Shown: positions 41,892 to 52,932 of the stretch, piece after piece | Layout of the letters: every line of letters begins with the position of its first letter | Numbering within the stretch: the first letter of the stretch is position 1 | Assembly (NCBI RefSeq): GCF_003967075.1 | Contig: NZ_AP018665.1 | Span: forward strand, 124,001 to 188,000 | Direction: 5' to 3' | Length of the DNA: 64,000 nt | Source of the DNA: Sphingobium amiense | GTDB taxonomy: Bacteria > Pseudomonadota > Alphaproteobacteria > Sphingomonadales > Sphingomonadaceae | Made by a program: the position numbers and the translations under genes | Notes under the pieces: generated by a model | What the model was told of the DNA's origin: nothing | Database searches by the model: none | The model's input: the letters and a program-made list of their open reading frames with translations, nothing else

Positions 41892-42497
41892 CTAGAGACG
41901 GCTGGTGGCCTGCCCCGCGGTGAAGTCGGCGAGCCATTGCTCCATGGTCGGCCGTTCGCTCACCGGCACGAGCGCGGCCGCGTCCTGGAAGCGCAGCAGC
42001 TCGGTGGGAGCGGTCCGCAGGATCTCGCCGATCTCGGCCTCGGGCAGCAGCTGCTCGGCACGGATAAAGTCGGTGATCCGCCCCGGACGGGTTCGGGTAG
42101 AGCGCCGCCAGAGCCCCTCGACCGTATGGAGACGGGGGGCCGCACGCGCCTCGATGAGCACGATGAGGCGCAGGCACCAGGCCGGCAGGGCGCGGACCTC
42201 GTCGGGCTTGATGGCGCCGCAGAAGAAGCAGGACGACTTGGGCGGGACCGGCAGGCCGGCTTGCGCAATCCGGGCCTCGCAGCGTGCGCGCGTCCAGCCC
42301 CAGTCGCGCAGCGGATAGCGGCACTCGAACAGCGGGTCGTCGATCCCGGCGGCATGGCGGTAACGGCGTGCGTCGGCGGGCGAGGCATCGTAGCCGATCA
42401 GGCGCACGACCTTCCGGCCCGCCGCCCAGGCGGCCTTGGCCGGCGGCCATTGCTTGAGGAAGGCGTCCTGGGGCGCGACCTTCCATTTGAGGCTGCA
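41892..42497 (-). pseudogene. PP-loop / PAPS-reductase-like gene, 3' part
   Basis: About 202 codons that begin CSLKWKVAPQDAFLKQWPPA and run through VVRLIGYDASPADARRYRHA, DWGWTRARCEARIAQAGLP and a cysteine pair KSSCFFCGAIKPDEV to the stop at 41892. It is the C-terminal part of the gene whose first 118 codons are at 51686-52039. Both parts share TGCAGC codons (Cys-Ser) at the breakpoint. The family (adenine nucleotide alpha-hydrolases, including PAPS reductase, QueC, DndC) activates a substrate with ATP. Confidence 0.88.
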
Positions 42498-42505
42498 TTA
42501 GGTCT
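42492..42505 (+). repeat. Left junction of the 9.2-kb element
   Basis: GCTGCA (42492-42497) is the target direct repeat; TTAGGTCT (42498-42505) is the outermost element sequence, inverted at the other end. Confidence 0.85.
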
Positions 42506-42600
42506 GCATCGACCTGTCGTATTGGCTGCGCAAAGCCCGCATTTCCGACATCCCCAGTCCTCCTCCCCTTCCAAGACGCCCGATTAGGGCGTGACCGCCT

Positions 42601-43065
42601 TCAGGCAGTGGAGGGATCGGGCGCTTCGGCGTTGATGCGGATAGGGACGGGCAGGCGTATCCGATCGAGTTCCTGCACGAGTTGCGCGTTGCGGCGTTCA
42701 AGGCGCTCCGCGCGCTGTTCGGCCTCGAGGGCGCGCTTCAGCAGGCTGGCATTATGTGTTGCGAGGGCGATGTTCTTGGCTTCCACGTGCCGAAGAGCAG
42801 AGCGTGTGCGATCGGCATCGCCGGCGGCCATTTCAGTGGCGCCCTCACGTTGCGATTGAAGCTCGCGCAGGGCGTCAAGAACGTCGGCATGGTGCGTATA
42901 GATGATGTTGCGGCCGACCCCGGCTGCTCGTGCAAGAGCGGCGACCGTTGGCGCGGCGGACGGGTCTTTGGCAAGGACGCCAAGGGCTTCGCGCAGACGT
43001 GCATTGGTGTTCGCCCGGCGACGGGCCTGCGGGGTGGATAGGTCAGATTCAGACGTCACCGGCAT
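42601..43065 (-). CDS. TnpC-like (DUF6262-type) transposition accessory protein
   Basis: About 154 aa from ATG 43065; GTG 43059 fits the upstream GAAGGA better. An N-terminal helix-turn-helix-like part (TPQARRRANTNARLREALGV, VAALARAAGVGRNIIYTHHA) is followed by a long coiled coil (KRALEAEQRAERLERRNAQL). The shape and place, immediately after and overlapping a Cys-tailed tyrosine recombinase, match TnpC of Tn554-like elements, which aids or orients integration. Family naming is from memory. Confidence 0.65.
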   Translation of the reverse strand: MPVTSESDLSTPQARRRANTNARLREALGVLAKDPSAAPTVAALARAAGVGRNIIYTHHADVLDALRELQSQREGATEMAAGDADRTRSALRHVEAKNIALATHNASLLKRALEAEQRAERLERRNAQLVQELDRIRLPVPIRINAEAPDPSTA

Positions 43066-44851
43066 TTCCTTCGTCGAGCTGGTCGAGGATACGGCGAGAT
43101 TCCTGGATGCGGGCTTCGGCAAGTGCTCGGCTCTCGCGATCGAGGTCATCGCGCTGGATCAATGCGGTGTTTCGTTCAAGCCGCGCTTCCCAGACCGGCC
43201 TATGCCGGTCGGTCACGGCGAAGTTGGCGCAAGTCGAGCAGGTGCTTTGTGTGCGAAGCACCGGGTTCGGCTCGCGCTCGCCGCCGAGGCAAGCGGAGGT
43301 CTCCCGGCGGTAGAGGCAGTAGCCCCAGTCGCATACGCCGAGGCGCATATCCGTGCCGGCGAGGATCTCGGTGATATATCCATCGACGTCGCTCGATAGC
43401 GTGCGCCCGCGGAACGGCGATCGCTCGGAGAGCATGACGCCCGCCTTCCCGGCGACGTTCGGCGCCAGGAGCAGGTCTTCCAGCGCCTTGCGGGTTTCTT
43501 CGGCGGCTTGGTCGTCGATCAGCTGGGCAAGCTCGAAGTCGGTGCCCACATAGGCCCGGTCGGTCATCGCGCGGTGGACATGGCCGAGATGGCGTTGCAG
43601 CGCCGTCAGGCCGGTGCGGTCGCGCCGCCCGATGAACCGTGAGAACGTCTTGCGACCCTGATAGGTGGTCAGGTGCCAGGTTCCGCCTTGGTGTTCCGGC
43701 AAGGCAAGGAACGGCGCAAGTCGTTCGTTCAAGCGGATATTGACCATGGGTGATCGCAGTCGAGCGACGGGCATCATCGTCGGAAGCGGCGAGCGTCCCC
43801 GGCCGAGCTGGTGGAGCCAGAGGTTCCTCTTCCCGCTAAGTTCGCGAAGCGGAGCGGAGAGACGTTCGAGGATGTGGATCGCCCGCTGGACCGGCTCGGG
43901 CGCGAGCCAGCGATGGACGTCCCCATGTTCCGTCAGCGACGTCTTCGTGATCGTGCCGACCAGATAGACGTGTTCCTCGCCGTCTCCGTCGGCCGCGCGC
44001 CGTTCGAGGCAACCCTCCTCAAGCCTGAGTATTTCGGAGGCTCTCGCGCCAACGAGATAGGCGATGACGACGAAGCAGGCGTCGCCAAGGCGATCGAGCA
44101 TGAACGTCAGGCGGCGCAGCGGCCATTCCGGATTCGGATACAGATCCGCGTGGGGGCATGGCTCAGCCAACATGGCGCGTCTGATATGCCAGTGGAGCCT
44201 TCGCCCCTGATGCTGTTGTCGAAACTTCTCATACAGATCTTCGAGGCGATCGCGCAGCGCGAGTATCTGGTCCGCTGGGTCACCGAGCAGTTCCATAGCG
44301 CCGCTGATGAGAGGCACGGCGATCTCGTCGGGCGTATAGGGATGGCCGCCATAAGGTTTCCAGTGCCGCTTCCCAACCGAACCGGCGCGAGGCGGCGCCA
44401 TCAGCGGCGCGTCGTCCAGCTTGTCGCGCTGCATGTGGAACGTGCGGATCGTGCCGAGATAGCCTTCGGCGGTGCTGAGGGAGAGCCGTGAAGCGTTCCT
44501 GCCGGGACGGGCGCGCAACATGGCCACGAACCGGTCGACGGCGTCTTGATCGAGATCCTTGAAGCATCGGACGTTCTCGGCTGCCATCCATCGAACGAGG
44601 AAGCGGATGTGGCTGAAGTGACCATCGACCGTTTCCTTGCGAAGTGGCATCCGCCCTTCGGGCGGATCGGCCCGCAGCGAGAACAGGAACAGTTCGGCGG
44701 CGTGCCGGAGCGGCGTCCACTGATCGTCCGTGAACCGGCTCCCGTCCGGCATTTCGAAGCCCCAGTTGAACGTCGTGGCGGCGGGGACGCCTTCGTTTCC
44801 GAGCAATGGCGCCGGAAGTTGGGTAGGCGTGGATGTCGGGACGGAGGCCAT
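43049..44851 (-). CDS. Tyrosine recombinase 3 of the element, Cys-rich tail
   Basis: 600 aa. The catalytic domain (~230-440) shows Arg in VGARASEILRLEEG, a TYQGRKTFSRFIGRR segment in the HxxR position, LQRHLGHVHRAMTDRAYVG with the His and the Tyr nucleophile. The C-terminal tail has paired cysteines (CDWGYCLYRRETSACL, QSTCSTCANF) that could bind zinc, then a helix rich in Arg/Glu. It starts 4 bp after recombinase 2 and overlaps the TnpC-like gene, so all four left-arm genes form one operon. Confidence 0.87.
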   Translation of the reverse strand: MASVPTSTPTQLPAPLLGNEGVPAATTFNWGFEMPDGSRFTDDQWTPLRHAAELFLFSLRADPPEGRMPLRKETVDGHFSHIRFLVRWMAAENVRCFKDLDQDAVDRFVAMLRARPGRNASRLSLSTAEGYLGTIRTFHMQRDKLDDAPLMAPPRAGSVGKRHWKPYGGHPYTPDEIAVPLISGAMELLGDPADQILALRDRLEDLYEKFRQQHQGRRLHWHIRRAMLAEPCPHADLYPNPEWPLRRLTFMLDRLGDACFVVIAYLVGARASEILRLEEGCLERRAADGDGEEHVYLVGTITKTSLTEHGDVHRWLAPEPVQRAIHILERLSAPLRELSGKRNLWLHQLGRGRSPLPTMMPVARLRSPMVNIRLNERLAPFLALPEHQGGTWHLTTYQGRKTFSRFIGRRDRTGLTALQRHLGHVHRAMTDRAYVGTDFELAQLIDDQAAEETRKALEDLLLAPNVAGKAGVMLSERSPFRGRTLSSDVDGYITEILAGTDMRLGVCDWGYCLYRRETSACLGGEREPNPVLRTQSTCSTCANFAVTDRHRPVWEARLERNTALIQRDDLDRESRALAEARIQESRRILDQLDEGNAGDV

Positions 44852-44855
44852 GAGG

Positions 44856-46673
44856 CTATTCCAGGTCCGGCAGCGGCGGCAAGGCGGGTATGTGCCGTTC
44901 CGCGTCCGGCATCATTTCGGGCGGGAACGCCGGCAGCAGGTCTTGTGTCAGCGCCCGAAGGCTGGGGGCATAGAAGAGGCTGAACCGGATCGGGTCGATG
45001 CGTTCCCGCGCCGCTTCAAGATGCATGGTGGCCTGGACAATGCGCGCCAGATGACCCGGGTCGATCGGGACGATTAGGCCTGGACAGGCAAGGCAGCCTC
45101 CCAGTTTCGGGCACACGCGGCCAGGCTGTGCCTGCCCGCCGTCGACCGGTCGAAGGCAGTCGTGGCCGAACAGCGCCGTCACCCGCGCGCTGGTATCCGG
45201 CCCTTGATGTTGCGAGTCATGGGCGGGCGTCTCGCCGGTGACCCATGTGATCATCAGCGACTGGAGCCGAGCGATCGTATCGCGTTCGAGGCGGCGGACG
45301 GCCTCGCCATCGACATAGATGTCGGTGGTGGCGACATTCGCATGATTGAGGACCGCCTTGGCCGCCATGATATCGCCCTGCGACGCTGTGTAGTGGGCGC
45401 TTGCCATGCTGCTGCGGAACAGCTTGGGCGAGAAGTCGGGAAGCAAGGAACGGGACTTGCCCGGATGCGCATCGTTCCAGGAGGCGATCGCGCCATTATG
45501 CCGTTCGTAGAAGCGCAACATTGCCGATCGCAACGTGGCCTGCACGATATGACCGGCGTGATGCTCGCGCTCGAGGCGTCCTGTCGTCATGAGGAAGCGG
45601 TGGAGGAACAGCCGGTCGCGTTTGGACGGCTCCACATGCGGTAATAGGGGCGCCGTCATCGCAAGGAGCTTTTCGATCAGGCGCGGCGCCGCATAGGGTC
45701 GGCGATTGTCGAACGAGCGCCGTTGCATGCGCTTCACCTTGCCGCCGGCACGAGGTTTCACCCACTCGACCATGACGCGATGCCGCTCGAGCGGATGCGG
45801 CACGAGGCAGTCCCGCTTGATCTGGCGCAGCGGACCGGCGTTGGCCGCCGTCTGGATCAGCAGCACGATATAGAACGCAACCAGCGTGTCGGTCGTGAGG
45901 TGGAGATAACCCTCGAGCTCGCGGAACCCGCCTACCTCGGCGATCCTCTGCCGATCGGGCTTGTTAAGGTCCAAGCCTCGGTCGATCGGCATGATGCCGT
46001 GGCCGCGGCGATGGAGCTTCCAGATCCAGCGATCCCGTTCGGCGGTCCGCCCACTATGGAGCGGCACGTTCGGAAGATTGACGATGGTTTGCCCGTGCTG
46101 GAACTTGGCCCATGCCGTGTCGATCTCGGCATAGCAGACTGCCAGCAGGGCGCGCATTGCGGCTGGTGTCAGCCGGTCTTGCGGTAACCGCTGGACGCCG
46201 GCGAGCGGGATCGGATTGTTGGGAACGGCGAAGCCCGGTGCGAACAAGCCTGGATTGTCCGCGATCGCGCGCTTGAGGACGGGCCGGATCATACCGAACT
46301 GACCGGATTGTGAGCGGACGCCACGCCTGCGCCCGTCAGTGGGCATCGCCAGCCAGGTGATGAACCGGCGGATCGTTGCCGTGTCGAGGTCTGCCGCGCG
46401 CCTGACACGCGCGTCTTCGCGCAGGAACCTACCGAACACGCGCATCGCGAACCAGCGCGCGGTGCGGGTCGCGACGCTGGATGCCATATCATGATCGCGG
46501 AAAGCCCGGGCGATGGCGGCGCTGATATCGTCCGGCAACCCGAACAGCGCCGGGTCGAAGCGTTGGACGATCTTGCCCCATTCGTCGCGGAACTGGATCT
46601 CGACGACCTCCGCCGGATGGTTCGCCGGTGCCGGATCGAGTCTCAGCGTGCGATCGAGGCGGCCCCTAGCCAT
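44856..46673 (-). CDS. Tyrosine recombinase 2 of the element
   Basis: 605 aa. The C-terminal catalytic half has LLIQTAANAGPLRQIKRDCL in the first-Arg region, LFRSSMASAHYTASQGDIMA, VLNHANVATTDIYVDG with His and Tyr, and a late cysteine cluster (CPKLGGCLACPG). The canonical first Arg and HxxR context is less standard than in recombinase 1, so it may be a partner or arm-binding subunit rather than the main catalyst. Its start overlaps the stop of recombinase 1 by 8 bp. Confidence 0.85.
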   Translation of the reverse strand: MARGRLDRTLRLDPAPANHPAEVVEIQFRDEWGKIVQRFDPALFGLPDDISAAIARAFRDHDMASSVATRTARWFAMRVFGRFLREDARVRRAADLDTATIRRFITWLAMPTDGRRRGVRSQSGQFGMIRPVLKRAIADNPGLFAPGFAVPNNPIPLAGVQRLPQDRLTPAAMRALLAVCYAEIDTAWAKFQHGQTIVNLPNVPLHSGRTAERDRWIWKLHRRGHGIMPIDRGLDLNKPDRQRIAEVGGFRELEGYLHLTTDTLVAFYIVLLIQTAANAGPLRQIKRDCLVPHPLERHRVMVEWVKPRAGGKVKRMQRRSFDNRRPYAAPRLIEKLLAMTAPLLPHVEPSKRDRLFLHRFLMTTGRLEREHHAGHIVQATLRSAMLRFYERHNGAIASWNDAHPGKSRSLLPDFSPKLFRSSMASAHYTASQGDIMAAKAVLNHANVATTDIYVDGEAVRRLERDTIARLQSLMITWVTGETPAHDSQHQGPDTSARVTALFGHDCLRPVDGGQAQPGRVCPKLGGCLACPGLIVPIDPGHLARIVQATMHLEAARERIDPIRFSLFYAPSLRALTQDLLPAFPPEMMPDAERHIPALPPLPDLE

Positions 46674-47808
46674 CGGCGGGGATCAGCTCGCCATAAAGAT
46701 AGGCGAGGCTTTCGCTCAGGTCGCGCTCGTGCAGCTCGACGCAGCGCAGATAAATCGCGGTGGTTGTGATCGAAGCATGGCCGAGCAGCACCTGCACGAC
46801 CTTGAGCGGGTTGAGATCGGGATTGGTGCGGGCCTGGATCTGAAGGCGGGCCAGCATCGCCATCGCGAAGGTGTGCCGCAGCCAGTGCAGCGTGCCCTGA
46901 AGTCCCGCGGCCGCGAACGCTTCCGCGAGCTGCGCCGTCAGGAGTTTTCGCGTCATGGCGCGGCCATGCTCGTTCAGCAGGAGATTAGGCGGCGCGCGAT
47001 AGCCCCGGTCGGAACGGCGGATACCGCGGACGATCCGGGCGCGATCCTCGCCCGCATACCAGTGTGTATGATCAAGCAGCCGAAGCGGCGGATAGACCGT
47101 CCTTGGCCGGTCGCCCTTGGTGATATGGAGCGGCACGCCGACAAGTGGATCGCTGTCGAGGTAGAGTGGCCAGCTATCCGGGATCTGGTCGAGGGCGAGC
47201 GCGCAAAGCTCCTTGCGACGCAGACCCGCCCCAAGCGCCCATTGCGCGGCAAGTCGGGCGGTAGGCCTCAGATGCGCGAACAGCCGTGCCAGTTCGTCGG
47301 CACGCAGCGGTCGCGGCAGTTTTTCCGGGCGTGAGACGATCAGCTCATTGACCTGGCGCCGCTGCAAGCCTGGGCGATAGGCGCCGTCGAGCATCAGCGT
47401 CATCTTCTCGGTCAACCGGAACGGGCAGTGGTCGATCAGCCCCTTATCGAGCGCCCAGCCATAGAAGCGGCAGACGGTCGAGACACGCGCATTGATCGTG
47501 GTCCGGGCATAGGGCCGCCCGGTATGCGTGCTGGGATTCTCCAGCATCCGGTTGCGATAGGCGGCGATGACGCGTTCGTCGGCTTCGCGCCATTCGATCC
47601 CCGATTGTTCGAGCGAGTCGAACCAGTCGTGGAGATGCTCGCCGTAGGTCCGCACGGTTTCGGAGGCGTGGGCACGGCCGCTTAGCTCTGCATGCTCCAT
47701 GAGCCAGACGAAGGCCGGCTCGATGATCGCCATGTCGGCGTCGAACAGAATCGGGAAGCCAGCGGGGACATTGGGCACGCCAGAGGCAGCCCGAATCACT
47801 GATACCAC
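46666..47808 (-). CDS. Tyrosine recombinase 1 of the element
   Basis: 380 aa with GTG start at 47808, chosen for its GGGAGA site; the frame stays open to 47964. N-terminal core-binding part: SETVRTYGEHLHDWFDSLEQ. Catalytic residues are all standard: Arg in GAGLRRKELCAL, HxxR in LHWLRHTFAMAM, His in VLLGHASITTTAIY with the Tyr nucleophile in IYLRCVEL. Most like TnpA of Tn554 or RitA. First gene of the recombinase operon, divergent from the TIR genes. Confidence 0.9.
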   Translation of the reverse strand: MVSVIRAASGVPNVPAGFPILFDADMAIIEPAFVWLMEHAELSGRAHASETVRTYGEHLHDWFDSLEQSGIEWREADERVIAAYRNRMLENPSTHTGRPYARTTINARVSTVCRFYGWALDKGLIDHCPFRLTEKMTLMLDGAYRPGLQRRQVNELIVSRPEKLPRPLRADELARLFAHLRPTARLAAQWALGAGLRRKELCALALDQIPDSWPLYLDSDPLVGVPLHITKGDRPRTVYPPLRLLDHTHWYAGEDRARIVRGIRRSDRGYRAPPNLLLNEHGRAMTRKLLTAQLAEAFAAAGLQGTLHWLRHTFAMAMLARLQIQARTNPDLNPLKVVQVLLGHASITTTAIYLRCVELHERDLSESLAYLYGELIPADG

Positions 47809-48011
47809 GGGCCATCTCCCTCGCCCGCACAGGTGCGATTTCGAAAGTAGCGCAACATGCTCGATTTGGCCGACGCATTTCGATGGAATGGGCGCTTTCC
47901 TCGCCATGCCGAAGGGTGTCGCTTCGACCAGCCTACCCCAAGCACTCACCGCGCCTGCTGACACCTGGCGTCCGCCTTGATATGAGTGGACGATGATCGA
48001 GGGGGGAAGCG

Positions 48012-48500
48012 GTGGCGCGTCGGGTATTCTTTAGCTTTCACTATGACCGTGACGTTCGACGGGTCGTGCAAGTCCGCAATTCCTGGGTGGTTCGTCCAGG
48101 TGGCGAAGCGCAGCCTTTCTATGACAAGGCAGAGTTCGAAGAGGCAAAAAGACGCGCGGGCGGCATAGAAAAATGGATCGAAGAGCAGCTCAAAGGCACG
48201 TCCGTGACTGTGGTGCTGTTCGGCGCAGAGACGTATGATCGCGAATGGGTCCGGCACGAGATCAAGAGAAGTTACGAGCTTGGGAAAGGCCTATTGGCCA
48301 TCGACATCCATAGCGTAAAAGATCCGCAACTTGGAACTGATCGACAGGGGACCAACCCTCTCAGTTATTTTACAATAAAGCAGAATGGCCGAGATATTCC
48401 GCTGTCGAACCTATACGGGACATATGATTGGGTCCGGGATAACGGCTATGCCAACATGCCGGCTTGGATCGAAACTGCGGCAAAAGCGGCCGGTCGCTGA
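48012..48500 (+). CDS. TIR-like protein (MTH538/DUF1863, ThsB-like)
   Basis: 162 aa with GTG start behind GGGGGAAGC. The fold starts ARRVFFSFHYDRDVRRVVQV and continues KAEFEEAKRRAGGIEKWIEE, SVTVVLFGAETYDREWVRHE. This matches the TIR-like domain family used as ThsB sensors in Thoeris, which sense phage and make a cyclic ADP-ribose-type signal. Its closest relative here is the gene at 50946-51443, which shares the same start and the QVRN and (E)KWI motifs. First of three plus-strand cargo genes. Confidence 0.85.
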   Translation: MARRVFFSFHYDRDVRRVVQVRNSWVVRPGGEAQPFYDKAEFEEAKRRAGGIEKWIEEQLKGTSVTVVLFGAETYDREWVRHEIKRSYELGKGLLAIDIHSVKDPQLGTDRQGTNPLSYFTIKQNGRDIPLSNLYGTYDWVRDNGYANMPAWIETAAKAAGR

Positions 48501-48505
48501 CACCA

Positions 48506-49666
48506 ATGAGTATCTATGAACTGGCCATACTTGGTGCGGCAACGCCAGAGGAGCGTGCAACACTGACAGCGACGCTCACGGATATCGTTTCCGACTTCGG
48601 ATTGACGTTGGGGGACGATGTAGTTGTGCATAATGCGGCAACGCTGGGTGAGCGGCACAAGCCAGCAGCATTCGCGTGTGCGTATTTTGGAGGAAATGCC
48701 CAGCAAGATCTCGAAGCGGCCCAAGACCTGATCCGGGCCAGTGCGCCCATCATTCCAACGATTGCCGCTGGCGCAGACTTCAATGCTCACATCCCCCCGC
48801 TTCTCCAGCCCATCAATGGGCTAACGCGGCGCGCTGACGATCCAAATATGACTGAACTCGCGTCAGCAATGCTGGAATGCGTGGGCTTACTTCGTCGACA
48901 GCGACGGGTTTTTGTGAGCTATCGGCGCGTGGAATCCCGAGCAGCAGCGTTGCAACTTCACGATCTCCTTGCGTCCCGCGGATTCGACGTATTCTTGGAC
49001 ACGCACGACATTAGGCCCGGCGATCCGTTCCAAGATGTGCTTTGGCATAGGCTCGTCGATTCTGATGTTATGGTTATGCTCGACACGCCTACCTATTTCG
49101 ATAGCCGCTGGACTCGACAGGAAATAGGAAGGGCGCGCGCGAAAGAGATCCAGGTCCTTCGTGTAATTTGGCCTGAGCATACGCCAAACAAGCTGACCGA
49201 TCTTGCAGAGACTATATATCTTGATCCAGAGGAACTCGAGGGGCCAGATGGCCCAATAGTAGCCAAAACGGCGGATACAATCGTCCTGGAGGTCGAGCGG
49301 CTACGAAGCCGGAGCATCGCATCTCGATATATGTCGATTACCGGCAAACTCCGCGCTGACGTCGAGAAAATTGGTGCGTCAGTGGAAGGCGTCGGCGCAC
49401 ATCGGGCCGTCGCCGTGCGGTTGCTGGACGGCGAAAAGATCTGGGCATATCCGATCGTCGGAATCCCCACGGCTGAAATTTTGAACGATGTGGCCGATAA
49501 GGCGCGACGAGCGGAACAGCAGGAGATACCGGTACTGGTCTACGATCATATCGGCATCCGTGATGCATGGAATGCTCATCTCCGATGGCTTGGGGAGCAT
49601 ATTCGCGCGGTCCGCACGATTAAAGTTTCCGAAGCCGGATGGGCTCTTGCGGCATGGGAGAACTGA
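48506..49666 (+). CDS. TIR-domain protein with unknown N- and C-terminal parts
   Basis: 386 aa from ATG 48506, 5 bp after the previous stop. Residues ~1-130 (YELAILGAATPEERATLTAT, later PIIPTIAAGADFNAHIPPLL) are not recognised. A canonical TIR domain follows at ~132-235: RRVFVSYRRVESRAAALQLH, GFDVFLDTHDIRPGDPFQDV and DSRWTRQEIGRARAKEI, with the likely catalytic Glu in RQEIG. The C-terminal 150 residues (AVAVRLLDGEKIWAYPIVGI) are unassigned. An NAD-cleaving or signal-making enzyme is likely. Confidence 0.85.
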   Translation: MSIYELAILGAATPEERATLTATLTDIVSDFGLTLGDDVVVHNAATLGERHKPAAFACAYFGGNAQQDLEAAQDLIRASAPIIPTIAAGADFNAHIPPLLQPINGLTRRADDPNMTELASAMLECVGLLRRQRRVFVSYRRVESRAAALQLHDLLASRGFDVFLDTHDIRPGDPFQDVLWHRLVDSDVMVMLDTPTYFDSRWTRQEIGRARAKEIQVLRVIWPEHTPNKLTDLAETIYLDPEELEGPDGPIVAKTADTIVLEVERLRSRSIASRYMSITGKLRADVEKIGASVEGVGAHRAVAVRLLDGEKIWAYPIVGIPTAEILNDVADKARRAEQQEIPVLVYDHIGIRDAWNAHLRWLGEHIRAVRTIKVSEAGWALAAWEN

Positions 49667-49668
49667 CC

Positions 49669-50325
49669 ATGACTGAGGCCATTTTTCTTTCGGCAGGCGT
49701 GCCGGATCCGAAGCGAGGCCCACAATATGCGGCGACCGCTGACAGTGTCGCGATTACAGCCGCAGTCTCCGCTTTGGTGCACGTCACGCTAGGACGCAGG
49801 CTGCTTGTTTGGGGTGGTCAACCCGCAATAACACCAATGATCTGGGTGGTCTCGCAAGACATAGGAATAAATTACGGACACTGGGTCCGGCTCTACCAGT
49901 CTCGCCATTTCAAGGACGAGTATCCCGAGGATAATGAGCGGTTCAACAACGTGGTTTATACGGACGAGATTGAGAAGGATCGGGAGAAGAGCTTGCTGGC
50001 CATGCGCGAGCGTATGTTTTCCGAACACAAGTTCAAAGCGGCAGTTTTCATTGGGGGTATGGGCGGGATTGTACAGGAATATGAAATGTTTCGACGCCTG
50101 CAACCGGACGCTGCAGTGATTCCAGTAGTCTCCACGGGCGGCGCGACGCTTGAAGTTGGGGCGCAGGTTGAATCTCTATCGCCCGACCTAGCGGAAGACC
50201 GGGACTATGTTGCGTTATTTCACCGCCACCTTGACGTTTCCGTCCGAGAGGAGCGCTTCGAAAGTCCAACTCTCCAACCGGATGTCGTTGAGAAGCGATT
50301 TTGGCAACCCCCTGCCACTGCTTAA
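49669..50325 (+). CDS. SLOG-fold protein, STALD-like (TIR-associated)
   Basis: 218 aa from ATG 49669, 2 bp after the TIR gene stop. The start FLSAGVPDPKRGPQYAAT, the middle RRLLVWGGQPAITPMIWVVS and FIGGMGGIVQEYEMFRRL are typical of SLOG Rossmann-like domains that bind NAD-derived nucleotides. The family called Sir2- and TIR-associating LOG fits both sequence and context. In Thoeris the SLOG is fused to a SIR2 effector; here it is stand-alone and no SIR2 gene is present, so its output is unclear. Confidence 0.78.
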   Translation: MTEAIFLSAGVPDPKRGPQYAATADSVAITAAVSALVHVTLGRRLLVWGGQPAITPMIWVVSQDIGINYGHWVRLYQSRHFKDEYPEDNERFNNVVYTDEIEKDREKSLLAMRERMFSEHKFKAAVFIGGMGGIVQEYEMFRRLQPDAAVIPVVSTGGATLEVGAQVESLSPDLAEDRDYVALFHRHLDVSVREERFESPTLQPDVVEKRFWQPPATA

Positions 50326-50341
50326 ACGGGACGGGAACTCG

Positions 50342-50896
50342 TTATTCACCAGCCAGCCACTCGCTAAGCTCGGTAGCTGTGTTCCTTTTCTCGTCGAGGA
50401 CCATCCAGACGCGCTTTTGATGACCCTGTAGATCCCCCCAGACGATGCGGCGGTATAATCCCAGATACTCCCACGACGCCCATGCCTGCTCATGCGCGCT
50501 GTCGGATGCCGGGAACAGCGCGATCTTCGTCAACCCTTTATACCCATCCGCGACGCCCAACTCCCAGGGCACCCAACGACTGTCCTTGCTGTTCTTGCTT
50601 GCAAGAAGGACAAAGCGCTTGGTCTGACGAATACGGCTCTTTAACAGCCCTGCCGTTTCCTCCGTCGTGTATGGGGGCATTTCCGGGTCGATTTCATCGA
50701 CATAAACCTTGGCGCCGTGCCCTTCTAATACACGAATGGCGCCAACGACGAGATCATCGTCCTTGCTTGAGTGCGAAAGAAATGTAGCACCCGACAGCGC
50801 CCGAGAAGAAGCAGATTTCCTGAGGTTTACCTGCTCGTTGATGTTCAATTTGCCAGCGAAATTACGAAGCTCGGATTTGGTAATATATTCTATCAT
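50342..50896 (-). CDS. TIR-domain protein
   Basis: 184 aa. After a short lead (NINEQVNLRKSASSRA) the TIR fold begins GATFLSHSSKDDDLVVGAIR and goes on VLEGHGAKVYVDEIDPEMPP and FVLLASKNSKDSRWVPWELG with the conserved Glu. The C-terminal part (TKIALFPASDSAHEQAWASW) is typical of TIR defence proteins. It converges on the SLOG gene with a 16-bp gap and lies 49 bp downstream of the next TIR gene on the same strand. Confidence 0.87.
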   Translation of the reverse strand: MIEYITKSELRNFAGKLNINEQVNLRKSASSRALSGATFLSHSSKDDDLVVGAIRVLEGHGAKVYVDEIDPEMPPYTTEETAGLLKSRIRQTKRFVLLASKNSKDSRWVPWELGVADGYKGLTKIALFPASDSAHEQAWASWEYLGLYRRIVWGDLQGHQKRVWMVLDEKRNTATELSEWLAGE

Positions 50897-50945
50897 TCTT
50901 GCCGCCCGCTCTTAATTCCGCGCAAAATCTCCGATTCTCTGCACT

Positions 50946-51443
50946 TCAGTTATTTGCTCGGATCGCAATGGCCTCTTCAATCCAAGTCTCGATCCCATTC
51001 TTAATCGAGTCATAGGCGGCTTTGCTATCTGCTCCGGAAGGAGAGACGAGCTTCACTATGGACGAAAGCTTCTTCCCTGTATTGGCGTAGCCTATTTCAT
51101 CAAATGGATTGCTGCCTGCCACGCACGAGTTCCCATCGTGACCAAGAAGTTTGTTTATCCGGATACCCACCACGCCTTTGCCTGCGTCCCAACCTTTGAC
51201 GATCTCGCGGATCACCCATGGCCGGTTCGCTGTTTCCGAACCGACGAGCACCACCACGCAACTCTTGCCGTACATGTTGTCATCGATCCATTTTTCGATG
51301 GAGGCTTTGCCCTTCCGCTTGACCTCCTCCCAAGCATTCGCAGTGCAAAGAGTCTGCCCTTCGAGGGCTCCGATGTTACGCACCTGCTGAGTACGCCAAA
51401 AATCGTTCGCGAAGTGAAAACTGAAGAAAACGCGCCGCGCCAT
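50946..51443 (-). CDS. TIR-like protein (MTH538/DUF1863, ThsB-like), second copy
   Basis: 165 aa from ATG 51443 (MARRVFFSFHFANDFWRTQQ). Family features: KASIEKWIDDNMYGKSCVVV, VGSETANRPWVIREIVKGWD and DEIGYANTGKKLSSIV. Clearly paralogous to 48012-48500 but quite diverged, so the two may recognise different phage cues. It and the 184-aa TIR gene form a minus-strand operon starting near the element's right end. The lower GC of the cargo suggests a foreign origin. Confidence 0.87.
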   Translation of the reverse strand: MARRVFFSFHFANDFWRTQQVRNIGALEGQTLCTANAWEEVKRKGKASIEKWIDDNMYGKSCVVVLVGSETANRPWVIREIVKGWDAGKGVVGIRINKLLGHDGNSCVAGSNPFDEIGYANTGKKLSSIVKLVSPSGADSKAAYDSIKNGIETWIEEAIAIRANN

Positions 51444-51685
51444 AAGGCCCCCTTTTGTTCTCCGACCTTCTACAGAGGCGGCCATCGTTCCGCTAGAGAA
51501 ATCGATTCGGAAACGAATGGCTTGAATAACAAGCGCGGCATTTTTGTGCGGCGCCTCATGCGACGCTTAAGCGTCGCTGCGCGACGCGAGGGACGGGCCG
51601 ACCACCGCCAGCTCTTTGGGTTAGCGCGGCAGTCGGCCCGTCCCTCATCGCGCGCAAAGGAGACAGTTTCAATGGGTAGACCTAA
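51444..51685. other. Right end of the element, rich in palindromes
   Basis: 242 bp without a gene. Contains an 18-bp perfect palindrome GCGACGCTTAAGCGTCGC (51560-51577) and a 15-bp inverted repeat GAGGGACGGGCCGAC (51588-51602) with complement at 51632-51646, a 29-bp spacer between. The latter is long for a terminator and may be recombinase-binding DNA. Confidence 0.6.
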
Positions 51686-51691
51686 GCTGCA
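51678..51691 (+). repeat. Right junction of the 9.2-kb element
   Basis: AGACCTAA (51678-51685) is the inverted copy of the left end; GCTGCA (51686-51691) is the second target repeat. Confidence 0.85.
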
Positions 51692-52039
51692 ACTATGCCG
51701 TCCCAGGCTGATGCTCGGCAAAGTCGCATTGGTCAGGACATTGGCGAGGATCGAATAATAGGGCGGCCAGTGCTTGAAGCGCCTGGGCACGTAGCGGACG
51801 ATCTCATAGGGAATCCCGCGCGCGTGCATCCACGCGGCGATCATCCGCTGATATTCGTAGGTCTCGGGCTTCTCCGCGCCCGGATCGGCGCTCAGCACCA
51901 GGTCTGGCGCCTCGCCGCGCGCCTCGAGTTCGATCAGCAGCGCCGTGGAATCGACACCGATCCCATAGGCCAGGACCACGGGCGGCGGGGCGGCGACCAG
52001 AATGGTATCGACCGCTCGTCTGTTGCTTGGGATGTGCAT
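51686..52039 (-). pseudogene. PP-loop / PAPS-reductase-like gene, 5' part
   Basis: 118 codons from ATG 52039 (MHIPSNRRAVDTILVAAPPP). The PP-loop is LAYGIGVDSTALLIEL, followed by DLVLSADPGAEKPETYEYQR and NATLPSISLGRHSCS. The frame then runs into the mobile element (SLGLPIETV...), giving a truncated product. The remainder of the gene is at 41892-42497. Before insertion it would have been a 317-aa protein lying directly after the Mom-like gene, probably in an operon with it. Confidence 0.88.
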
Positions 52040-52095: not shown

Positions 52096-52932
52096 TCATT
52101 CTCGGCCGGCTGTGCGGTTCTCGGCCTCGATGCGAAGATCGAACTGAAAGGTGGGGTGCGCCAACGGCAGGGCCTTTGGATAGGGAAGTCGCGGCAGTGC
52201 GCGGCCGTGCCGGCGGGCTTCGCGGGTGAGCTCGAAGCAATAGGCGTAGAGACCCGGCTGCTGATGGCGCACGAGATGGCGTTCGCGTTGCAGCCGCCAA
52301 AGCCATGTCGCAGGCATCTCCCCGAACTCCGGCCTGGGCAGGCCAAGCGAAACGAGCTGATCGATGGCGCCGGCATGGCCTCGCTCGCCAAGGCGGATCT
52401 TCGAGAGCGTGCGCCCCGCGATCGTTGTGTCGCCGGCGCGCAGGACGGTTCGCGGCCTCGTAATGGCGCGGTGCGCCGCCGAGAGCGCGCAATAGACGCG
52501 GCCTATATGTCCGGCGCTTGGGTCGCTGTACGAAACCACGGCCTCGATTCCGGGCTTCTCGCGGCGCAGATGGCGAAAGGCCCGCGCGACGAAGAAGCTC
52601 TCCCCGTTCTGGGGCACGGCGTCTGTCAGGATCAGGCGGGCGAGCACGCAGCCGCGTAGCGGATCGGCAAAGCCGGTGTGCCGCGTGATTACGGCTCCGG
52701 TGGCCGGAACGGCGAAGACGGCGACGCCTTCCAGGACTGCCCCGGCGCCATAGAGCCCGACCGCGAGCTGCGCCGCAGGATAGGTCGGCAGATAATGATG
52801 GCGGGCAATGAAAGCGCGCGCGGCATCGTGTCCGATGATCTCGACGGAATAGGATTTGGGATCGATGACCGTGAGATCGCGGGCCCAGAGCGCCCGGCGC
52901 TCGCGCCAGCGCTGGCTGCGGCTCGTTTCCAT
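52096..52932 (-). CDS. Mom-family-like DNA modification (GNAT-fold) protein
   Basis: 278 aa. Segments HDAARAFIARHHYLPTYPAA, FAVPATGAVITRHTGFADPL and VVSYSDPSAGHIGRVYCALS resemble phage Mu Mom, which carbamoylmethylates adenines to avoid restriction. The Mom-like part takes up residues ~35-170; a helical C-terminal part follows. It lies upstream of the interrupted PP-loop gene on the same strand. Identity is by pattern, not by alignment. Confidence 0.68.
   Translation of the reverse strand: METSRSQRWRERRALWARDLTVIDPKSYSVEIIGHDAARAFIARHHYLPTYPAAQLAVGLYGAGAVLEGVAVFAVPATGAVITRHTGFADPLRGCVLARLILTDAVPQNGESFFVARAFRHLRREKPGIEAVVSYSDPSAGHIGRVYCALSAAHRAITRPRTVLRAGDTTIAGRTLSKIRLGERGHAGAIDQLVSLGLPRPEFGEMPATWLWRLQRERHLVRHQQPGLYAYCFELTREARRHGRALPRLPYPKALPLAHPTFQFDLRIEAENRTAGRE

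Follow-up and report, generated by a model that had tools for sequence, protein, structure and literature searches.

A site-specific mobile element of sphingomonads with a Thoeris-like cargo and a conserved hairpin at one end

A unit at positions 42492–51691 of a 64,000-nucleotide stretch of Sphingobium amiense DNA (contig NZ_AP018665.1, positions 124,001 to 188,000; hereafter the window) is a genuine and precisely delimited mobile element. It is 9200 bp long including a 6-bp spacer at each end, and the body between the spacers is 9188 bp. From left to right, a spacer and a terminal repeat are followed by the minus-strand genes D, C, B and A, then by five cargo genes and a hairpin, and finally by the second terminal repeat and spacer (Table 1). 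Comparison of related sequences establishes this anatomy, the mobility of the element, its target gene, an asymmetry of the spacers in three cases, and the conservation and position of the hairpin. The unit is likely to be a site-specific element of the kind represented by GInts, strand-biased circularizing integrative elements (SEs) and Tn554, which would move as a circle that keeps the A-side spacer, with its cargo beside gene A and a conserved hairpin.

Copies of the body are found in different surroundings. There are no mismatches over the 9188 positions in plasmids pSES220 (L021) and pSES189 (L036) of S. yanoikuyae SHJ or in Sphingomonas sp. CBMAI 2297 (L101), and other copies have 2 (L035), 23 (L037 and L102) or 24 mismatches (L103). 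Among the window, L021, L036, L035 and L101, the ungapped identity of the 250-bp flanks ranges from 0.69 to 1.00 on the left and from 0.35 to 1.00 on the right, the flanks being common to L035 and L101. Most copies are plasmid-borne, and that of genome G008 lies within a 4.2-Mb contig. The window stretch matched 26 plasmid records, 4 of which contain 80% or more of it at a single place. In S. xenophagum C1, a 12,817-bp element body occurs without mismatch on both p1 and p2. Not all of these loci are independent, since the contigs of L102 and L037 appear to be one and the same, as do those of L107 and L038. The copy in L103 lies in a metagenome-assembled genome (MAG) labelled Microbacterium, where its presence is most likely a binning error. 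A 9188-bp contig of Novosphingobium naphthalenivorans (L104) is the element from end to end and lacks flanks, which is what the collapse of a repeated element in assembly would produce.

A preliminary description of this DNA had delimited the unit by matched ends and a 6-bp direct repeat. Both are present (GCTGCA-TTAGGTCT at 42492–42505 and AGACCTAA-GCTGCA at 51678–51691), but the ends alone are within chance and the repeat is not a target duplication. An 8-bp inverted match combined with a 6-bp direct match at a distance of 2–30 kb has 51 occurrences in the window, one of them being this pair, and the 8-bp ends were therefore rejected as significant by themselves. The ends are fixed by comparison with identical bodies elsewhere and with intact alleles of the target, not by the terminal matches alone. 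The abundance of this geometry could be taken to mean that the ends match by chance and that recombinases and TIR genes are neighbors by accident. That explanation is extremely improbable: it is refuted by the identity of the whole unit in other contexts, and the recombinase operon stands beside the cargo in 9 of the 11 loci of the cargo gene ThcA found in the genome collection.

Table 1. Features of the element and of its target gene, in window coordinates.
Feature	Position	Strand	Basis and remarks
Interrupted target gene, 3′ part	41892–42491	minus	Rejoined frame and intact homologues L029, L031, L032; left flank identical to L029
Left (D-side) 6-bp spacer	42492–42497	none	GCTGCA
Left terminal repeat	42498–42527		Imperfect, TTAGGTCT...CTGTC...; inner limit approximate; ends compared between elements
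Gene D, TnpC/GinD-like	42601–43149	minus	42601–43065 with the RefSeq start in an identical copy
Recombinase C (600 amino acids)	43049–44851	minus	25% identity to L072 homologue
Recombinase B (605 amino acids)	44856–46673	minus	Sub-threshold Phage_integrase match; 26% identity to L072
Recombinase A	46666–47964	minus	46666–47808 with the RefSeq start in an identical copy
ThsB-like TIR protein	48012–48500	plus	Pfam ThsB_TIR 89.8 bits; PADLOC ThsB
ThcB4, TIR protein of type III Thoeris	48464–49666	plus	NCBIfam NF058526 496.9 bits (cut-off 220); RefSeq start 48506
ThcA, SLOG protein of type III Thoeris	49639–50325	plus	NCBIfam NF058525 262.8 bits (cut-off 110); RefSeq start 49669
TIR protein	50342–50896	minus	Pfam TIR_2 37.1 bits; PADLOC ThsB models
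ThsB-like TIR protein	50946–51485	minus	Pfam ThsB_TIR 84 bits; PADLOC ThsB; 50946–51443 with the RefSeq start
A-side hairpin	51579–51656	plus	Paired region 51588–51646; loop CGCCAGCTCTTTGGGTTAGCGCG at 51606–51628
Right terminal repeat	51657–51685		Imperfect, terminates in AGACCTAA; inner limit approximate; ends compared between elements
Right (A-side) 6-bp spacer	51686–51691	none	GCTGCA
Interrupted target gene, 5′ part	51692–52039	minus	Rejoined frame; right flank identical to L033

The interrupted gene reads from 52039 to 41892. When its flanks are joined by script, they form a single open frame of 317 codons from ATG, with the stop at 41892. This agrees with the earlier claim that excision in silico restores a 317-codon PP-loop gene, but the restored gene is, judged by its flanks, an in-frame chimera of two alleles, because the flanks match two plasmid types at 100% identity, that of L029 on the left (1692 bp) and that of L033 on the right (1709 bp). 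We take PP-loop to be simply the name that the preliminary description gave to this gene; the one family signal seen is a sub-threshold PAPS_reduct match in L032 (E value 0.23). Intact alleles that lack the element were read in L029–L033, so that the uninterrupted sites proposed as a check do exist. Intact homologues with the same boundary bases had been expected to count against the element, yet those found are empty sites that support it. A match to the target gene at an E value of 1e-20 or better is present in 53 of 150 related genomes, many of these matches being full length, and the 15 tabulated insertions all lie at the same two codons of homologous genes.

Two further observations concern the target gene. 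In five contigs (G042:C10, G034:C2, G067:C1, G070:C35 and G043:C44), it appears to be interrupted at a second insertion point as well, near residue 206–212. Its neighbor in the window (52096–52932, minus strand) encodes a Mom-family protein (PF25680, 89 bits, cut-off 27.1). Mom is a phage DNA-modification enzyme, and the target gene may form part of a DNA-modification pair with this neighbor.

The chimeric flanks have a counterpart in the same genome. The contig of the window (C2) combines a type I left flank with a type II right flank, and contig C3 has the reverse; the spacers are GCTGCA/GCTGCA in the C2 copy and CGAGCA/CGAGCA in the C3 copy. Such a pattern would be the expected outcome if two ordinary copies (GCTGCA/CGAGCA and CGAGCA/GCTGCA) had swapped flanks. 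The exchange, and with it the equal 6-bp repeats of the window, could be an error of assembly between two copies rather than recombination in the cell, and we rate the chances of this a little short of even. The flank combinations on C2 and C3 are reciprocal, and the two copies share stretches of 3.76 kb and 1.44 kb at 95–97% identity, flanks included, as an assembly error would suggest. On the other side, C2 and C3 have other long repeats in common, and two cross-overs in the cell could yield the same result. The C3 copy also differs internally, the part that matches window positions 45688–50541 being replaced by ∼5.0 kb of other DNA with open reading frames (ORFs) that look transposase-like by eye.

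The spacers themselves were tabulated for 15 insertions with both ends seen; the C3 copy and one-ended loci were left out. The two spacers are unequal in 7 of the 15. Together with the origin of the window's flanks from two plasmid types, these unequal pairs rule out a target-site duplication, and it is because of that dual origin that the equal repeats of the window are not one either. Read in the frame of the target, the right-side spacer is Cys-Ser in 15/15 insertions and the left-side spacer in 14/15, that of L026 being Cys-Cys. Wherever an empty allele with matching flanks was found (three cases), the right (A-side) spacer is that of the target and the left spacer is foreign. The target reads CGAGCA and the left spacer GCTGCA in L021; the respective hexamers are GCTGCA and ACTGCA in L037. 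In L112, which belongs to a family with another target, they are GAGATC and GAGGTC, and the 200-bp flanks are 100% identical to the empty allele. This polarity is the same as that described for SEs, in which the target's 6 bp lie at the intA-proximal end and the carried 6 bp at the other end (PMC10214605), although it is derived here from empty alleles and not from experiment. From this rule we infer that the pSES220 copy came from a GCTGCA site and the pSES189 copy from a CGAGCA site such as that of pSES220.

Another mode of movement would be plain excision and reinsertion, in which a heteroduplex spacer is repaired and there is neither strand bias nor a retained source copy. For several GInts, restored empty sites were detected and spacer variants were explained by heteroduplex repair (PMC5385486). 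We consider this mode unlikely for the present element. The three informative cases agree in the side on which the target's 6 bp lie, and an identical body is present on both p1 and p2 of S. xenophagum C1. However, chance or transfer between cells could account for either; the paired bodies fit a retained source copy without proving it.

At the A-side end, comparison of right ends with different cargo revealed the hairpin. A pattern for its loop matches the window once and 100 shuffles not at all; in 150 related genomes it gives 12 matches, spread over 10 genomes and all at an element end. An alignment of 15 sequences selected by us (A2) has 25 pairs, with compensatory changes in 10. A larger alignment (A3) holds 28 matches from 29 sources, L170 falling below the limit, in 24 distinct rows; it was fitted to the structure and is therefore biased toward it. 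Pairing occurs in 93.0% of its cells, versus 80.9% in shuffles and 26–42% in slid versions, and its covariation score is 0.366, versus 0.137 in shuffles and at most 0.136 when slid. When 61 genomes were searched with a model of the hairpin, 13 gave matches, in 41 rows that represent 35 distinct sites (six rows are second strands). Twenty-eight of these sites were read as loci (30 loci, two of which are second strands); every one of them is at an element end or immediately adjacent to gene A. This genome contributes five more, at the end of a second element, so that 33 of the 35 sites are covered.

In the window's family the hairpin stands 29–35 bp from the terminus. It is common to relatives with different cargo, targets and recombinases, including a second family whose A and C proteins are ∼25–29% identical to those of the window. 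By its position the hairpin belongs to the terminus and not to gene A, because in the window's family the two are set apart by cargo. It might instead serve transcription, as a terminator, an attenuator or a small RNA, and be uninvolved in movement. Its place in the second family, 8–84 bp upstream of gene A (L174), is that of a leader or promoter, and a sub-threshold match to the Caulobacter small RNA CC1840 (26.7 bits versus 50) overlaps it. Nevertheless, this explanation is doubtful: in the window's family cargo intervenes between hairpin and A while the distance to the terminus is held, the compared right-end sequences have no T-run after the hairpin, and the hairpin of L170 has no CC1840 match. 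In the short stretches searched, no Rfam match to the hairpin reached the gathering score.

So far the loop is mainly sphingomonad, because a class-wide search with the hairpin model under stricter filters matched only one of 141 genomes besides its own (G624, 37.4 bits), in surroundings that are IS21-like by eye. Seven distant loci have palindromes of other sequence (at least 12 pairs, within 700 bp), upstream of A in six and downstream of D in one. These were counted with no shuffle control, and that of L118 is 503 bp away, perhaps outside the element. Another hairpin, with the loop GTCCTCGCTNCGCTGCGGG, is found upstream of gene A in the rhizobial loci L073 and L116, and its stem differs between the two by compensatory changes.

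The second element of this genome (G000; see also L170–L173) is ∼6.59 kb long and has six identical copies, four on contig C1, one on C2 at about 188060–194655 and one on C3. It has recombinase ORFs of the sizes of A, B and C, a 316-amino-acid ORF in place of D, and a hairpin of the same kind near gene A. The identities given above for its A and C proteins extend over most of the aligned length.

The preliminary description placed three tyrosine recombinases and a TnpC-like gene in one arm and five TIR/SLOG genes in the other, and these ORFs are present, the five being four TIR genes and one SLOG gene. A four-gene operon on a P. aeruginosa plasmid (L072) encodes homologues of A, B, C and D in the same order, at 33, 26, 25 and 27% identity; the match of D covers 116 amino acids (E value 1e-5). 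We take the L072 operon to be a GInt from its layout, and homology to GinABCD is thus traced via this operon. Recombinase A matches Phage_integrase at 45.1 bits (cut-off 27.1), C has no Pfam match, and D has a sub-threshold TetR_N match. Over eight homologues, A keeps R249, K283, H360, R363, H396 and Y405. B keeps the second Arg, the His and the Tyr but not the first Arg, and C keeps both Arg residues and the His, a nearby Tyr not being a single invariant column. A tree of C with 15 rows unites the forms from sphingomonads and rhizobia (95/97) and sets them apart from a P. aeruginosa/CH34 pair (100/100). Support is good for nine of the 12 inner branches and three rows are long-branched, which makes deep placements unsure.

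The cargo of the window is, from model matches, a type III Thoeris-like cluster of four TIR proteins and one SLOG protein, with a predicted function in defense. Two of its genes pass the curated NCBIfam models, one for ThcA and one for ThcB4, by which the class is assigned here. ThcA also matches Pfam LD_cluster3 (272.7 bits). The solved chains closest to the first cargo TIR protein are 8wcf_A, 9b7d_A (ThsB1) and 6lhy_A; for ThcA, a search of solved chains found no structural relatives. In a distant Acetobacteraceae MAG (L111), genes for ThcB4, ThcA and TIR proteins also neighbor each other. In L105 (8376–12042), Thoeris cargo with the right end and hairpin lies between what appear to be two parts of a diverged target gene, and no recombinase was found.

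Defense appears to be one cargo among several in this element family. Relatives at the same gene, with B and C ∼76–98% identical, carry different cargo: a Piwi-domain gene, a SMEK gene and a cluster for a ribosomally synthesized and post-translationally modified peptide (RiPP) in L023, almost nothing in L025, two sets of efflux genes in L026, and hypothetical genes with insertion sequences in L028 (all four from annotation). The operon is also found at the target gene with other neighbors in L024, L027, L041/L120, L042, L043 and L044; no right end was seen within the stretch searched in L024, L027, L042 and L043. Judged by eye, arsenic genes are present in L043, L044 and L045 and metal-efflux pumps in L120 and L138; annotation places chromate genes in L112/L113. 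The suggestion that the site between recombinases and right end is variable is borne out by elements that share recombinases and differ in cargo there. The window, L023, L028, L044, L045 and L112 have their cargo between A and the right end, and the distance from the D-side end to D is 103 bp in the window and ∼160 bp in L045. In L115 and L116, candidate D-side ends lie 106 and 108 bp from D and A-side candidates 240 and 349 bp from A, by which these two elements would be nearly cargo-free. Genes downstream of D in L072 were considered as cargo shared with L118 or L117, and no matches were found.

Contrary to what the preliminary description proposed, the vehicle is not new in kind; the recombinase operon and the defense cargo are both known kinds of part. 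The description of GInts, which have three integrases and a small fourth gene, dates from 2017 (PMC5385486); in 2023 they were named as defense-carrying elements at several E. coli hotspots and called Tn6571-family (PMC10121019). Our element resembles them in the order of its genes for three tyrosine recombinases and a small TnpC-like protein, in inserting site-specifically and in having variable cargo, which in E. coli includes defense genes. In the GInt layout, the operon is at one end, cargo begins at the ginD stop and the far end is short and AT-rich (PMC5385486). In contrast, cargo here lies mainly between A and the A-side end, and the D-side end is ∼100–160 bp from D. The A-side hairpin and the separate clade in the tree of C are further differences, and the accessible text of PMC5385486 makes no mention of a hairpin-type feature.

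SEs share the behavior of the 6-bp spacers and the occurrence of identical copies in two replicons of one strain. Their gene set is different (intA-tfp-intB-srap) and reported only in Gammaproteobacteria, and no hairpin, stem-loop or palindrome is mentioned in the accessible text (PMC10214605). Tn554 and its relatives, set side by side by description, have adjacent tyrosine recombinases with TnpC, a specific target, imperfect inverted ends and a 6-bp footprint (PMC10214605), with two recombinases whereas there are three here. RIT elements also have three adjacent recombinases, and a palindrome noted near ritA/ritC may be a precedent, by analogy, for the hairpin. However, RIT elements are ∼3.5 kb long (PMC3414803); the operon of our element alone is ∼5.4 kb, to which a fourth gene and cargo are added, and the 9.2-kb unit falls outside a cargo-free ∼3.5-kb definition. 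In literature that was mostly open-access, and which thus gives a weak negative, we found no published description of this sphingomonad family, of type III Thoeris, of a covarying hairpin ∼30 bp inside the A-side end, or of spacer asymmetry or A-side cargo in such sphingomonad elements.

These comparisons suggest a possible course of events. Proteins A, B, C and D would act on the two ends, imperfect inverted repeats of ∼30 bp, each beside a 6-bp spacer. A circle would form that keeps the A-side spacer and would insert at the two Cys-Ser codons of the target gene. The new copy would then have the target's spacer on the A side and the spacer of the previous site on the D side, and the source copy could remain in place. 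Cargo would be held mainly between gene A and the A-side end, where the type III Thoeris-like cluster of the window would make an NAD-derived signal on phage infection. The hairpin would most likely fold from a single strand, or as a cruciform, during circularization or second-strand synthesis. We infer the circle, strand bias, the retained source copy, the role of the hairpin and anti-phage activity from sequence patterns.

Several findings weigh against this interpretation. Of the movement itself, neither a circle, an empty site nor strand bias was observed. The spacer rule is informed by three cases; a fourth, L113, has GAGGTC on both sides and in the empty relative and tells nothing about it. 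One of five covariation measures for the hairpin is not above shuffles (21 further pair types versus 23.0), the right end of L026 is without this hairpin, and L072 has no hairpin of at least 12 paired bases near A. The placement of cargo also has exceptions. L026 has 8.5 kb between the left end and D, with genes on both sides; the locus (6517–27669) looks composite, since efflux genes lie between the left end and the operon and again between the operon and the right end, and a weak hairpin match (28.7 bits) immediately precedes D. The left-end candidate of L073 lies 812 bp away from D, and in L049, where the hairpin is directly at A, a left end was looked for and none was found.

We nevertheless propose, tentatively and as a model slightly more apt to fail than to hold, that these elements form a separate branch of three-recombinase elements, in which the hairpin at the A end marks one strand for circularization or second-strand synthesis, cargo lies between the hairpin and A, and the D-side 6 bp records the last site. 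Because a defined end has a conserved structure and natural insertion pairs preserve the spacers of donor and target, two questions become testable: by what means three recombinases and a helper move these elements, and what makes SE-type circularization strand-biased. The spread of defense clusters among sphingomonad replicons, along with that of genes for arsenic, chromate and metal efflux, would also be linked to one vehicle.

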